Shown here one piece after another: positions 10,041-16,917 of a stretch of 64,000 nt of DNA. The notes beneath the pieces are model-generated. The model saw nothing but the letters and a program-made list of their open reading frames with translations. It searched no databases and was not told the origin of the DNA. Every line of letters starts with the position of its first letter. Position 1 is the first letter of the stretch. The position numbers and the translations under genes are program-made. The DNA comes from Chthonomonadales bacterium (GTDB lineage: Bacteria; Armatimonadota; Chthonomonadetes; Chthonomonadales; CAJBBX01), in NCBI GenBank assembly GCA_020849275.1, contig JADLGO010000053.1, forward strand, positions 1 to 64,000. Direction: 5' to 3'.

Positions 10041-10331
10041 ATGACGAGGAGGCCCCAACGGCGCGCCGCGAGTGCCGACGCCACGCGCGTCGCGGGTGGA
10101 TCGATGCTCGACCGGGCGGCCCCGCTGGTTGCTCTTCTGTGGCTGTTCGTACCGTCCGTACAGTACGTCGCGGCCTTCGTCCGCGCGCGATGGCTCCTCT
10201 CCCCGACGGGCGATCTACCGCGCGCCGCGCTCATGGATCTTACTCCCCTGTACGTCGTCCTCCTGGTCGTCACCCTCCTGACCGCGGCGCTGCGGGCCCT
10301 GCGCGCCACACCCGGGGAAGCCGCTCGATGA
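10041..10331 (+). CDS. Small two-helix membrane protein
   Basis: 96 aa, not recognised as a named family. A basic N-terminus is followed by two predicted membrane helices, LDRAAPLVALLWLFVPSVQY (about 23-42) and TPLYVVLLVVTLLTAAL (about 68-84). It starts 13 bp after aroB and its stop overlaps the start of the PASTA kinase gene (ATGA). The coupling suggests it is made with the kinase and might sit beside it in the inner membrane; that is inference. Confidence 0.7.
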   Translation: MTRRPQRRAASADATRVAGGSMLDRAAPLVALLWLFVPSVQYVAAFVRARWLLSPTGDLPRAALMDLTPLYVVLLVVTLLTAALRALRATPGEAAR

Positions 10332-12172
10332 TCGGTCAGGTAGTGCACCTGCGTTACGAGGTGCTCGAGCGCGTCGGCGAGGGCACCCTGCTGCAGGCAT
10401 ACAAGGCTCGCGACAAGGTGATGGGCCGCATGGTGGCGCTCAAGGCGCTCCAACCGGCCTACGCGCGCGATCCGGCAGTCTGCGCGGCGCTGCGCTCCGT
10501 GGCCGGTGAGACGGCCGCCCTCACGCACCCGAACATCGCTCGCGTCTTCGAGATCGCCGAGGAGGACGGCGTCCCGTTCCTGGTGACGGAGTTCGTTCGC
10601 GGCATCAACCTCAAGGAGCGCATCCGTCGCATCGCGCCGTTCACGCTCTCGGTCGCCGTCGATTTCGGCATCGCCATCGGCGAGGCGCTGCAGCACGCGC
10701 ACGGCGCCGGCATTCTTCACGGAGACCTGCGCCCTCACAACGTGGCGGTGAGCCCGGAGGGCGTGGTGAAGGTGACCGACTTCGGAATGCTGCACGCCGC
10801 GGCCGCCTCTCCACGCGCCTTCCAGACGGCCGGCGCGCGCGCCGTCCACTATCAGGCTCCCGAGCTCTCCGAGGGGCGGCCGCCGTCGCCCTCGGCCGAC
10901 CTCTACGCGCTCGGAGTGATCCTCTTCGAGATGCTGACCGGCAGCCTGCCCTTTCCCGGCGAGAGCCCGCAGGCCATCGCCGCGCGGCACCAGCGCGACC
11001 CGGTGCCCTCGCCGCGCTCCCTGAACTCTGGCGTGCCACGCTCGCTGGAAGGCATCGTCATGAAGGCGCTACAGAAGCGGCCAGAGGATCGTTACGCCGC
11101 GGCGACCGATCTCTTGAGCGACCTGAGGTCGGTGCGCGACGCCCTGCGTTTCGGGCGATCGCTGTCGTGGACCCCGTTCGAGGCCGCCCCCGCGGCGGCC
11201 AACGCGCCGGCGGCGTCTGCCGTACACTCGCCGTCTCCGCCGAAGTCGGTGCCGCCGCCGCGGCCCGACCCGGCGCCCGCCGCGATGCCCGCCGCCCGCA
11301 TGTCGCCGACCGCCGCGGCCGACGAGTCGCTCTCGCCATGGCTCAAGCTCGCGCTTGGCACGGTGCTCGTCATTCTCCTCGGCTCTGCCATCGTCGGCCT
11401 GGCGCTCTGGTTCGCCACGTCCAGCAAGCCGCCCGCCGCGCGCTTCCCGAAGCTGGTGGGCATGAGGATCGAGGACGCTCGCGCCGTCGCGGACAAGGCG
11501 CACGTGAAGCTGGTGATCCGCCGCGACTATGACGAGAAGGCCGATGCCGGAATCATCTACCGCTCGGACCGGGAGGAGGGCGTGCCCGTGCGGCCCGGGC
11601 ACAGCATTCTGGTGTGGGTGAGCCGTGGCTCGCGGCGCGTCTGGGTGCCGGACGTCACCGGCATGGACAAGGACGCGGCAGTGCGGAAACTGGAGGACGC
11701 CGGGTTGACCCTGGGGCTGGTGAACCGCGAGTACAACGACACGGTTGCCTTCGACCAGGTGATCCGGCAAAACCCGCGCGCCGGCAAGCGCGTGCTGCGG
11801 GATACGCCAGCCAACCTGGCACTGAGCGACGGGCCCAACCTGGCCGAGACCCCGGCGGGGCCGCCGCCGGACGCGGCGTTTCCCGATGAGGCACAGGGCG
11901 GCGGAACCGGCGCCCTCCCGGACGCGTCCAACGAGGAGCCTCAGACCTACACGCTCACGGTGAAGGTGAAGGAGGACGGGCGCGGTCAGCGGCAGGTGCG
12001 CGTAGAGTACGATGACGCGCACGGCACGAACACGCCGATCGACGAGAGCCACGGCGAAGGAGACGTGATCACGCAGCAGGTGGAGGTCTTCGGCCCGCGC
12101 ATCACGATTCGCGTGTACTACGGTGACGACCCGGTGCCCGTGTCCGAGCGCACGCGAACGCTCAGGAGATGA
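10328..12172 (+). CDS. Transmembrane Ser/Thr protein kinase with PASTA domains (PknB/PrkC-like)
   Basis: 614 aa. Start ATG 10328 overlaps the preceding stop. The cytoplasmic kinase domain (about 8-270) has a shortened glycine loop GEGTLLQAY, ATP-binding Lys39 (VALKAL), catalytic loop HGDLRPHN (Asp133) and DFG at 151-153. The residue before the catalytic Asp is Gly instead of Arg, making it a non-RD kinase. A Pro/Ala linker precedes one membrane helix (about 340-362). Two extracytoplasmic PASTA repeats follow (about 374-440 and 440-507), then a tail of unknown fold. PASTA kinases sense cell-wall fragments. The stop overlaps rpe. Confidence 0.92.
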   Translation: MIGQVVHLRYEVLERVGEGTLLQAYKARDKVMGRMVALKALQPAYARDPAVCAALRSVAGETAALTHPNIARVFEIAEEDGVPFLVTEFVRGINLKERIRRIAPFTLSVAVDFGIAIGEALQHAHGAGILHGDLRPHNVAVSPEGVVKVTDFGMLHAAAASPRAFQTAGARAVHYQAPELSEGRPPSPSADLYALGVILFEMLTGSLPFPGESPQAIAARHQRDPVPSPRSLNSGVPRSLEGIVMKALQKRPEDRYAAATDLLSDLRSVRDALRFGRSLSWTPFEAAPAAANAPAASAVHSPSPPKSVPPPRPDPAPAAMPAARMSPTAAADESLSPWLKLALGTVLVILLGSAIVGLALWFATSSKPPAARFPKLVGMRIEDARAVADKAHVKLVIRRDYDEKADAGIIYRSDREEGVPVRPGHSILVWVSRGSRRVWVPDVTGMDKDAAVRKLEDAGLTLGLVNREYNDTVAFDQVIRQNPRAGKRVLRDTPANLALSDGPNLAETPAGPPPDAAFPDEAQGGGTGALPDASNEEPQTYTLTVKVKEDGRGQRQVRVEYDDAHGTNTPIDESHGEGDVITQQVEVFGPRITIRVYYGDDPVPVSERTRTLRR

Positions 12173-14384: not shown

Positions 14385-14962
14385 TCCTATCGATGCTCCG
14401 TCGCATCGTGATGATGCTGCTGACCGTGGCCGCCGTCACAGGCATGATGGGCTATGCGTCCGGCTACTTCACGGGCGAGGTTCGCAGGGAAGACTCGTGC
14501 GTGCTCTGCCGGGCCACACGCTACACCGGTGTGCAGTACGGCGTGGCCTACACGCGCATCGAGGACGGGCCCGTCACGCGGTGGTTTCGCGCTACCGTGG
14601 ACCCCTTGCACGGGCGCTCGCCCTCGCATCCGCACGAGTGGCACCAGAGCGCCTGCACCGTGGTGACGCGCCCGGGCTTCCAGGATGCCACCTACGGCTG
14701 CGTCGCCATCCCCTCCATCTTCCTTCTCCGACCGGAGATTGAGGTCGAGGTGCTCGACCGCATCCCCGACCTACCCACCAAGGTCGCCGTGCTCCGGTCA
14801 CTCAACTCTCCCGACCGCAGGGCGAACGCGCGCAGGGTGCGTCGCCTGATCGAGTACCACTACGTCGACCGGGAGGAGATGCCGTGGGGCACCTGGTGGG
14901 CCCGTAATGCGGCGCAGTTCGGCGTCGACCCGGCTTCGGGCGCCGGCGGCGGGCCAGCGTGA
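14381..14962 (+). CDS. Membrane-anchored CxxC protein of unknown function
   Basis: 193 aa. GTG 14381 overlaps the ribD stop; in-frame ATG 14393 is an alternative. An N-terminal hydrophobic helix (about 8-28, IVMMLLTVAAVTGMMGY) anchors a short exported domain carrying DSCVLCRATRY, a CxxC pair that could bind metal or haem or be redox-active. A C-terminal amphipathic part is rich in Trp and Arg. A single CxxC not followed by His argues against c-type haem. No family recognised. Confidence 0.7.
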   Translation: MILSMLRRIVMMLLTVAAVTGMMGYASGYFTGEVRREDSCVLCRATRYTGVQYGVAYTRIEDGPVTRWFRATVDPLHGRSPSHPHEWHQSACTVVTRPGFQDATYGCVAIPSIFLLRPEIEVEVLDRIPDLPTKVAVLRSLNSPDRRANARRVRRLIEYHYVDREEMPWGTWWARNAAQFGVDPASGAGGGPA

Positions 14963-15063: not shown

Positions 15064-16254
15064 ATGAATGCCCACGTCACCGTGCCCGAGCACATCAATC
15101 TGCTCCAGGCGCTGCCCCGCGGCGCCTCTTCTGTCGGCTATCGCGCGTGCGACCGGCGCACCGGCGCCATGGTGGCAGCCAGGCTCTACAGGCGTCTCGA
15201 CTGGCTGACCGACGCCGAGGCCGCCGCGCGCGCCGCGTCGGTGACCGCGACTGCCCGCAGACTCGCCGACGTGAGGCATCCGGCCCTCTGTGGCGTGCTA
15301 TGCGCGCACGAGTGCGAGGAGGGCGTCTGGATCGTGCGGGAGTGGGCGGAGGGGCTGTCGCTGCGCGAGCACCTGGTGCGCCATGGCATGCTCTCTCGCG
15401 AGGAGGCAAGCCGCGTCACAGCCGAGGCGGCCGCCGCCCTGGCCGCCCTCCACGCGGCCGGGCTGAGCCACGGCGCGCTCGGCCCGACCAACGTGTTCAT
15501 CTCCCCAGACGGCGCCGTGCGGATCGCTGACCCGGCCCTTGGCCTGGCGGCGGGCGCGCTCGAGATCGCCGGAGTGCCCTGTCGCGCGGAGCGCCGCCGG
15601 ATCCCCGCGGACGACACGCGGGCGCTGGCCGCCATGCGCTCCAGGCTCTCCATCGGCGTACGGGCCGACGCCGGCGCGCGCCCGCGCGGGGTATACTCCG
15701 TGCCGGCCGTGGCCGCTCTGCCGCCGGCGCGCGCCGCGCGGACCGCCTGGCAACCACGCATGTCCCTGCGCCCGTCGGTGGCGATCGGGACCTTTGGCGC
15801 CTTTCTCACCTTGACGGCGGTCGCGCTTCCGGAGCAGGGAGCGCGACAGGCGGCGCGGAACTCCGTCGTGCGGTCCGCGACGCTCGCCGCCAGCGCCCCG
15901 CTGTCGGCGGAGCCGGCGCCCGTGCCGTTCACCGAGCAGGACCGGCGGTTCGCTCGCCTGGCCGTGCGGCGGCAGGGCGCCGTGGCGCTGGCGCACCCGA
16001 TGGTCGCCGAGATGCTGGCGCTCACCGAGGAGCAGCGCACCGAGGTCGCTGCCGCGGTGGCGGCGCAGCGCGATCGCGTGGAGCAGATGGTCGGCCGCTG
16101 CGCGCAGGGCGCCGCGGTCAACACCGTCGCCTCCATGCGCGCGATCCGAGAGGAGACGAGGGCCCGCGTCATGCTGGCGCTAGACGCGCGGCAGCGGGCC
16201 ACATGGGAGGCCTTCGAGCAGCAGCCGCTCGCTCCCGGCGAGCCCGTGCTGTAG
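15064..16254 (+). CDS. Membrane pseudokinase with C-terminal LTxxQ-like helical domain
   Basis: 396 aa. Start taken at ATG 15064 because GAGGAG lies seven bases upstream; ATG 15049 would overlap that site. Residues about 10-165 align with the PASTA/Pkn kinase fold (hinge IVREWAEGLSLREHL, ALAALHAAGLSHG), but every catalytic residue is replaced: VAIK-Lys is Arg (AARLYRR), the catalytic loop reads HGALGPTN, and DFG is ADP. After a linker and one membrane helix (about 240-258) comes a helical domain with ALTEEQRTEVAAAV and QRATWEAF, similar to the LTxxQ motifs of Spy/CpxP. Probably a scaffold or sensor. Confidence 0.8.
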   Translation: MNAHVTVPEHINLLQALPRGASSVGYRACDRRTGAMVAARLYRRLDWLTDAEAAARAASVTATARRLADVRHPALCGVLCAHECEEGVWIVREWAEGLSLREHLVRHGMLSREEASRVTAEAAAALAALHAAGLSHGALGPTNVFISPDGAVRIADPALGLAAGALEIAGVPCRAERRRIPADDTRALAAMRSRLSIGVRADAGARPRGVYSVPAVAALPPARAARTAWQPRMSLRPSVAIGTFGAFLTLTAVALPEQGARQAARNSVVRSATLAASAPLSAEPAPVPFTEQDRRFARLAVRRQGAVALAHPMVAEMLALTEEQRTEVAAAVAAQRDRVEQMVGRCAQGAAVNTVASMRAIREETRARVMLALDARQRATWEAFEQQPLAPGEPVL

Positions 16255-16335: not shown

Positions 16336-16917
16336 ATGTCGGCCGAGAGTACCCTGAGAGCCGAGTTCCCGCGCGCGCTGCGCGGCTATGCGCCGGAGGC
16401 CGTCGATCGCTTTGTGGAGGAGATCGGCAACCGGTTGGACGCGATGCAGAAGCTGCTGGACGAACAGGCGGAGCGGACCGCGGACCTGGCGCGTGCAACG
16501 GAGAGCGCCGGCGCGAAGCTCTCGGCGTACGTGGCGAAGGAGGAGGCCATCGCCAGCGCCCTTGTGTCCATCGAACAGCATCGCGCCTCCGTGGCGCATG
16601 AGAACGAACAGAGGGCCCAGGAGGCCCACGCTCTGGCCGAGAGCGTTCTGGAGCAGGCACGCCGTGAGGCCACCGCGATCGTCGTTGCAGCGCGCGGGGA
16701 GGCTGCGGGCCTGACGGCGGCAGCCGAGGCGGAGTGCGTCCGCCAGTCCGAGCGGCTCGAGTCGCTTCGCGTCGAGTACGAAGAGACAATCCGGCACATC
16801 CGGCGCGCCCTGGAGGCCCAACTCGCCCTTCTGCCCCGCCCGGGAGCCGCGACGGCGGAACTCGCCCTGACCGCGGCCGTCGCCGCGCCGCGCGAGGGCT
16901 GTGTCGAGGCGGCCTGA
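16336..16917 (+). CDS. DivIVA-like coiled-coil protein
   Basis: 193 aa, cytoplasmic. The N-terminus FPRALRGYAPEAVDRFVEEI (about 11-30) matches the DivIVA/GpsB membrane-curvature domain, in which FxxxxxGYxxxxVDxF is the hallmark. Residues about 30-160 are continuous charged coiled coil. DivIVA-family proteins bind negatively curved membrane and organise division or polar growth, and several are substrates of PASTA kinases; a kinase and a pseudokinase are encoded just upstream. Strong ribosome-binding site (GGAAGGAGAG). The specific role is not determined. Confidence 0.85.
   Translation: MSAESTLRAEFPRALRGYAPEAVDRFVEEIGNRLDAMQKLLDEQAERTADLARATESAGAKLSAYVAKEEAIASALVSIEQHRASVAHENEQRAQEAHALAESVLEQARREATAIVVAARGEAAGLTAAAEAECVRQSERLESLRVEYEETIRHIRRALEAQLALLPRPGAATAELALTAAVAAPREGCVEAA

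Follow-up and report, generated by a model that had tools for sequence, protein, structure and literature searches.

The gene at 15064-16254 of the window (the whole 64,000-nucleotide stretch analysed, which is contig C53; the genome measures 4.8 Mb) encodes a degraded kinase domain followed by a putative membrane helix and an all-helical, probably exported LTxxQ-type domain, and it forms a conserved pair with a DivIVA-like gene. We refer to the two genes as psK (15064-16254) and dvL (the DivIVA-like gene downstream). The reading that we prefer, and hold with moderate confidence, is that psK acts as a transmembrane adaptor without catalytic activity, joining an exported LTxxQ-type domain to a scaffold of the DivIVA family. 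Under this reading, psK would be a single-pass inner-membrane adaptor whose cytosolic pseudokinase acts as a protein-binding platform, and the partner of that platform would be the coiled-coil protein dvL, encoded directly downstream. The outer domain, of the type found in Spy, CpxP, ZraP, and CnrX, would sense or bind an envelope ligand, for example unfolded protein. A change outside would be passed through the small-residue membrane helix, probably via altered self-association such as dimerisation. How the DivIVA-like scaffold is recruited would then change, with consequences for envelope growth or division. If this is true, psK would link the state of the periplasm to a cell-pole or division scaffold without phosphotransfer. 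To our knowledge, growth control in Armatimonadota has been little studied; the fusion to a Spy-like outer domain, together with the gene order with DivIVA, makes psK and dvL a testable pair. The features of psK are:

15064-16254, forward strand: psK, pseudokinase-TM-LTxxQ-type fusion gene, 396 aa (single open frame, Pfam, orthologs)
15091-15558, forward strand: degraded kinase domain, residues 10-165 (PF00069, alignment, AF2, VIA)
15559-15771, forward strand: eroded C-lobe and linker, residues 166-236, the region of an aF-like helix in orthologs (alignment; AF2 pLDDT <50)
15775-15831, forward strand: residues 238-256, a putative membrane helix of weak hydrophobicity and no charge, with a GxxxA pattern
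15925-16233, forward strand: all-helical LTxxQ-type domain, probably exported, residues 288-390 (AF2 of the domain alone, VIA, profile links)
16021-16038, forward strand: LTEEQR motif, residues 320-325, whose L320 and Q324 do not vary among the four orthologs

The psK gene and its kinase part

psK is a real, conserved gene. It starts at the ATG at 15064, with a ribosome site (GAGGAG) 7 nt before it; a promoter and terminator scan was uninformative. The fusion is also present in three other Chthonomonadales-type genomes of the Armatimonadota (G002, G005, and G008), giving four orthologs, including the window's, from three genera of one family. A search with the four-row psK alignment returned the three orthologs and a single match to an ordinary kinase from Frankiaceae, and a single-protein psK search of the genome contig set gave no match. 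With psK alone as the query, 59 of 61 phylum genomes matched at E<=1e-3, most of the listed matches being via the kinase part.

The preliminary description took the N-terminal part for a complete pseudokinase. PF00069 matches residues 14-156 (49.9 bits, cut-off 31.7), and the catalytic Asp is absent in all four orthologs (HGAL, HGAL, FTRI, FTRI), so the pseudokinase claim is borne out. Completeness is not well supported: the Pfam match covers profile positions 4-141 of 263 only, and the AF2 model from the four-row alignment is confident over approximately residues 10-160, including the N-lobe and aE, with pLDDT <50 for residues 166-287. What remains is thus the N-lobe and the first half of the C-lobe, not a complete domain. 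Divergence of the kinase part is large across the four orthologs, and the C-lobe of the window protein is the most eroded: an aF-like stretch is kept in G002, G005, and G008 and eroded in the window. The activation segment is deleted in all four by alignment.

We set the motif register by alignment to the PASTA kinases of the window genome, G002, and G005. As described, the VAIK Lys is replaced in the window (R40, in VAAR; the closest ortholog, G002, has Lys), and the catalytic Asp is replaced by A138 (H136-G137-A138). The description of DFG as replaced by "ADP" is right in that the Phe and Gly are lost, but it is one residue out of register: VRIADPA aligns with VKVTDFG of the PASTA kinases, and the Asp is therefore kept, as D156 in "DPA". 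The catalytic-loop Asn (N143) is also kept.

These residues bear on another reading, that psK keeps nucleotide binding through N143, D156, and R40 and works as an ATP-occupancy signal or a non-standard transferase, as SelO and SidJ do. We consider this very unlikely. It would fit the catalytic-loop Asn and DFG Asp of the window protein and the intact VAIK Lys, Asn, and DFG Asp of G002, and the available part of PMC12599244 indicates that Lys-to-Arg pseudokinases may still bind ATP. However, G005 and G008 are without the glycine-loop region and have Asp in place of the catalytic-loop Asn, and G005 also has Asn in place of the DFG Asp; nucleotide-binding residues are thus not conserved across the psK family.

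The best VIA match of the kinase model is Stk1 (9ymt; Z 19.0, rmsd 2.2, 159 residues), and the 50 Foldseek matches listed for it are kinase entries. EssB is absent among the 50 VIA matches listed. The PASTA kinase model NF033483 scores 56.6 bits on psK, against a cut-off of 450 and over the kinase part only, and the Pfam scan found no PASTA domain in psK. As to a possible derivation of psK from the neighboring PASTA kinase, a 38-row tree places the psKs outside the PASTA clade, but on very long branches and with long-branch warnings.

Putative membrane helix and LTxxQ-type domain

The membrane helix noted earlier corresponds to an uncharged segment, and six of its residues (A240, G242, G245, A246, T249, and A254) are invariant in all four orthologs. 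Its hydrophobicity, however, is weak and inside the range of cytosolic controls: the window helix has a hydropathy of 1.67, and the four orthologs span 1.23-1.67, overlapping controls that reach 2.06. On a rough insertion scale, the psK helices lie at 1.13-2.24, TM and signal controls at -1.92 to 1.30, and cytosolic controls at 2.17-6.85. The weak hydrophobicity of the helix does not alone prove a membrane pass; the family of the C-terminal domain is the better argument for export of the C-terminus. Altogether, a single membrane pass is probable, and we infer the topology of psK with moderate confidence.

The C-terminal domain contains both motifs of the preliminary description, LTEEQR (320-325) and QRATWE (377-382). 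Modeled alone by AF2, it forms five helices with a pLDDT of 89.5. Foldseek found no match for it at E<=0.001 (best E 2.6). The top VIA match is STV (5io8; Z 7.6, rmsd 3.5, 77 residues), followed by Spy (3o39; Z 7.1, rmsd 2.8, 73 residues) and, at slightly lower scores, chains of CnrX and ZraP. Of the 11 top rows, 10 are Spy, STV, CnrX, or ZraP chains, including the Spy entry 6bie; Z scores of 6-7.6 are middling and within the chance range for helical bundles.

Profile searches connect the domain to secreted proteins. PF07813 (LTXXQ) gave no match on psK up to E=1. A profile of the helix plus outer domain was searched over 291 phylum genomes, where, with at most 12 candidates scored in each genome, 72 matched at E<=1e-5. 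Only four rows cover the whole profile, and these are the psKs; the other matches examined are mostly secreted LTxxQ-type proteins. On a rough scale, 34 of 38 distinct relatives have a hydrophobic signal-like segment upstream, and some of the remaining four are cut ORFs. In the reverse direction, a profile of these 38 relatives, which were picked with the psK profile and so are not an independent selection, found all four psKs (E at Z=1 of 1.6e-22 to 5.5e-16) and none of 1000 shuffled or four reversed tails. Among eight relatives scanned with PF07813, three pass (L056, L057, and L091), three fall below the cut-off (L086, L087, and L089), and two (L038 and L039) have no LTXXQ match at E<=0.1.

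The earlier proposal of a Spy/CpxP-like exported domain is therefore supported, in that related secreted proteins pass LTXXQ and the model is closest to the Spy family, with middling scores; the outer domain likely belongs to this fold class. psK shares with Spy, CpxP, ZraP, and CnrX the LTxxQ motifs and, probably, the all-helical hairpin fold and export, but differs in lying below Pfam detection, in being fused to a pseudokinase, and in having no conserved His or Cys. CnrX and ZraP are metal sensors. We considered metal sensing by the outer domain and put it aside: no His or Cys is conserved in the four domains, and psK thus gives no hint of a metal site like those of CnrX and ZraP.

One of the relatives below the cut-off, L086 (2304-3965 of G003:C614), combines a CotH-kinase domain (PF08757, 183 bits) with an LTxxQ-type tail (19.5 bits), a second fusion of such a tail in the same family.

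The dvL pair and the PASTA kinase cluster

Three neighboring genes enter the argument:

10328-12172, forward strand: PASTA Ser/Thr kinase, possible psK partner (PF00069 127 bits, PF03793 81.6 bits)
14393-14962, forward strand: small protein with an N-terminal membrane segment and an EDSCVLC motif, beside ribD in G002, G003, G005, and G008
16336-16917, forward strand: dvL, DivIVA-like gene, 193 aa, 81 nt downstream of psK (PF05103, alignment)

The DivIVA-like protein reported downstream is confirmed by PF05103 (41.2 bits, cut-off 28), and the NCBIfam DivI1A_domain model also matches. psK lies directly upstream of dvL in all four genomes, with gaps of 81 nt in the window, 106 nt in G002, and 31 nt in G005 and G008. 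Homologs of dvL at E<=1e-40 occur in five of 291 phylum genomes, namely the four psK genomes plus G003, where the gene is cut by the contig start; a dvL profile at E<=1e-10 finds six of 291, the sixth being G086 (8.4e-12). dvL has the N-terminal domain of the DivIVA/GpsB/Wag31 group. The canonical DivIVA of the window genome is encoded at C73:5257 (E 3.6e-32), beside a gene read as YggT-like, and dvL is a divergent second copy.

The PASTA kinase gene is indeed located upstream of psK, within a gene order (aroC-aroK-aroB-PASTA kinase-rpe-small protein-ribD-small CxxC protein) common to the window, G002, G005, G008, and G003, allowing for small gaps in the stretches compared and for an aroB that rests on the reading of ORFs; part of the order is kept in G004, G006, and G010. 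In the window and G002, psK and dvL come after this cluster. G005 and G008 carry the intact cluster on one contig and psK with dvL on a different one, so that the pair is kept together in two different chromosomal contexts. As neighbors, psK and the PASTA kinase thus co-occur in two genomes and not in the other two, and mere co-occurrence is uninformative, since 59 of 61 phylum genomes have kinase matches. The proposed kinase-pseudokinase module is therefore not well supported: the firm partner link of psK is the DivIVA-like gene, and the link to the PASTA kinase is weak.

Within the cluster, the catalytic loop of the PASTA kinase reads HGDL, not HRDL, and likewise in G002 and G005. The small protein at 14393-14962 carries an EDSCxLCRATRY motif, has no Pfam family above cut-off, and belongs with the aro-PASTA-rpe-ribD cluster, not with the psK-dvL pair. 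G003 is a candidate fifth psK genome that is not counted here: the start of its dvL coincides with a contig edge, and its PASTA contig ends in a repeat-like tail without psK. This tail (L104, 9644-10102 of G003:C233) is intergenic and comes immediately after the small CxxC protein, the place that psK has in the window.

The gene order in the window (G000) and G002 raises the possibility of a phospho-switch like that of MviN, in which the PASTA kinase at 10328 would phosphorylate psK, dvL, or both, with the pseudokinase as substrate and docking platform. In M. tuberculosis, according to the available part of PMC12599244, MviN (Rv3910) is a membrane pseudokinase with a deleted activation loop that serves envelope growth together with PknB and FhaA, and PknB phosphorylates the pseudokinase tail. 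psK resembles MviN (ActPs3) as described there in its dead kinase, its shortened activation segment (the ActPs3 activation-loop deletion is present in psK when set against the family description), its probable membrane association with the putative TM C-terminal to the pseudokinase, and a PASTA kinase gene nearby in two of four genomes. The psK linker (166-236) has very low model confidence, as expected of a disordered tail, and 3oun_B, the MviN domain, appears among the VIA matches with Z 14.7. However, this score is below those of many unrelated kinases, no FHA gene was recognized beside psK, and the pair is away from the PASTA cluster in half of the genomes. psK also differs from MviN in being without a lipid-flippase part, in its outer domain, and in having a DivIVA-like rather than an FHA partner gene. 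We think a phospho-switch of this kind unlikely.

Selection was assessed by Nei-Gojobori dN/dS for a single genome pair, G005 versus G008. The ratio is 0.175 for the whole of psK, 0.225 for the kinase part (95% bootstrap 0.136-0.360), 0.024 for the membrane helix, and 0.144 for the outer domain; dvL has a ratio of 0.200 and the PASTA kinase one of 0.131. psK is thus under purifying selection between these two genomes. The kinase part is its least constrained region and, in the window protein, shows strong erosion, as would be expected if psK were simply an exported LTxxQ-type chaperone or sensor at the membrane, with a decaying kinase part as cytosolic anchor and an incidental DivIVA neighbor. 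Yet a ratio of 0.225 is still well below 1, the psK-dvL pair persists across both genomic contexts, and the N-lobe and aE are confidently modeled by AF2. We regard this explanation as improbable and favor the adaptor reading.

Known systems and a second pseudokinase near DivIVA

The layout of psK has precedents. EssB/YukC of type VIIb secretion and TraF of pIP501 type IV secretion have an N-terminal cytosolic pseudokinase, one TM, and an all-helical domain outside, and act as adaptor or hub, as set out in the available parts of PMC3694306 and PMC13037476. psK probably shares this layout, its putative membrane helix being weak, but differs in that no sequence match was seen, its outer domain is LTxxQ-type, its partner gene is DivIVA-like, and its host is an armatimonadote. 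Pfam assigned none of seven window proteins (psK and six neighbors) to a secretion-system family; the other three loci were read by eye. The literature searched contained no paper that combines an LTxxQ domain (or CpxP) with a pseudokinase, and among the papers listed none was apparent that links a pseudokinase with DivIVA; what combined LTXXQ, kinase, and fusion concerned Pseudomonas Cpx. The earlier statement that no example of this fusion has been described thus fits the exact fusion and not the general plan, which is already described in EssB/YukC and TraF.

dvL profile searches also led, through G086, to a second family, the MshEN-pseudokinases (L105, 3267-6140 of G086:C4, and L106-L111), which we use as a lead only. 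Eight members were aligned, seven of them close (G086, G087, G088, G091, G092, G093, and G195). The seven have a VCPxN-like catalytic loop without Asp, a replaced DFG (APL, VPF, etc.), and no activation loop; the G086 protein has a kinase score of 20.3, below the Pfam cut-off of 31.7. A ParA/MinD-like gene is next to the pseudokinase, downstream, in five of the seven (G086, G087, G091, G092, and G195), and a convergent DivIVA-domain gene lies just beyond in four (G086, G091, G093, and G195). For the remaining three, the DivIVA-domain match is on another contig (G087 and G088) or none was found (G092). It is conceivable, though we put it forward tentatively, that dead kinases recur as DivIVA-scaffold partners in Armatimonadota, in at least two unrelated architectures (psK and MshEN-pseudokinase); psK would then be a phosphorylation-free receptor that reports envelope state to a polar or septal scaffold. 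Further along in G086 are genes that read as MreC/MreB-like.
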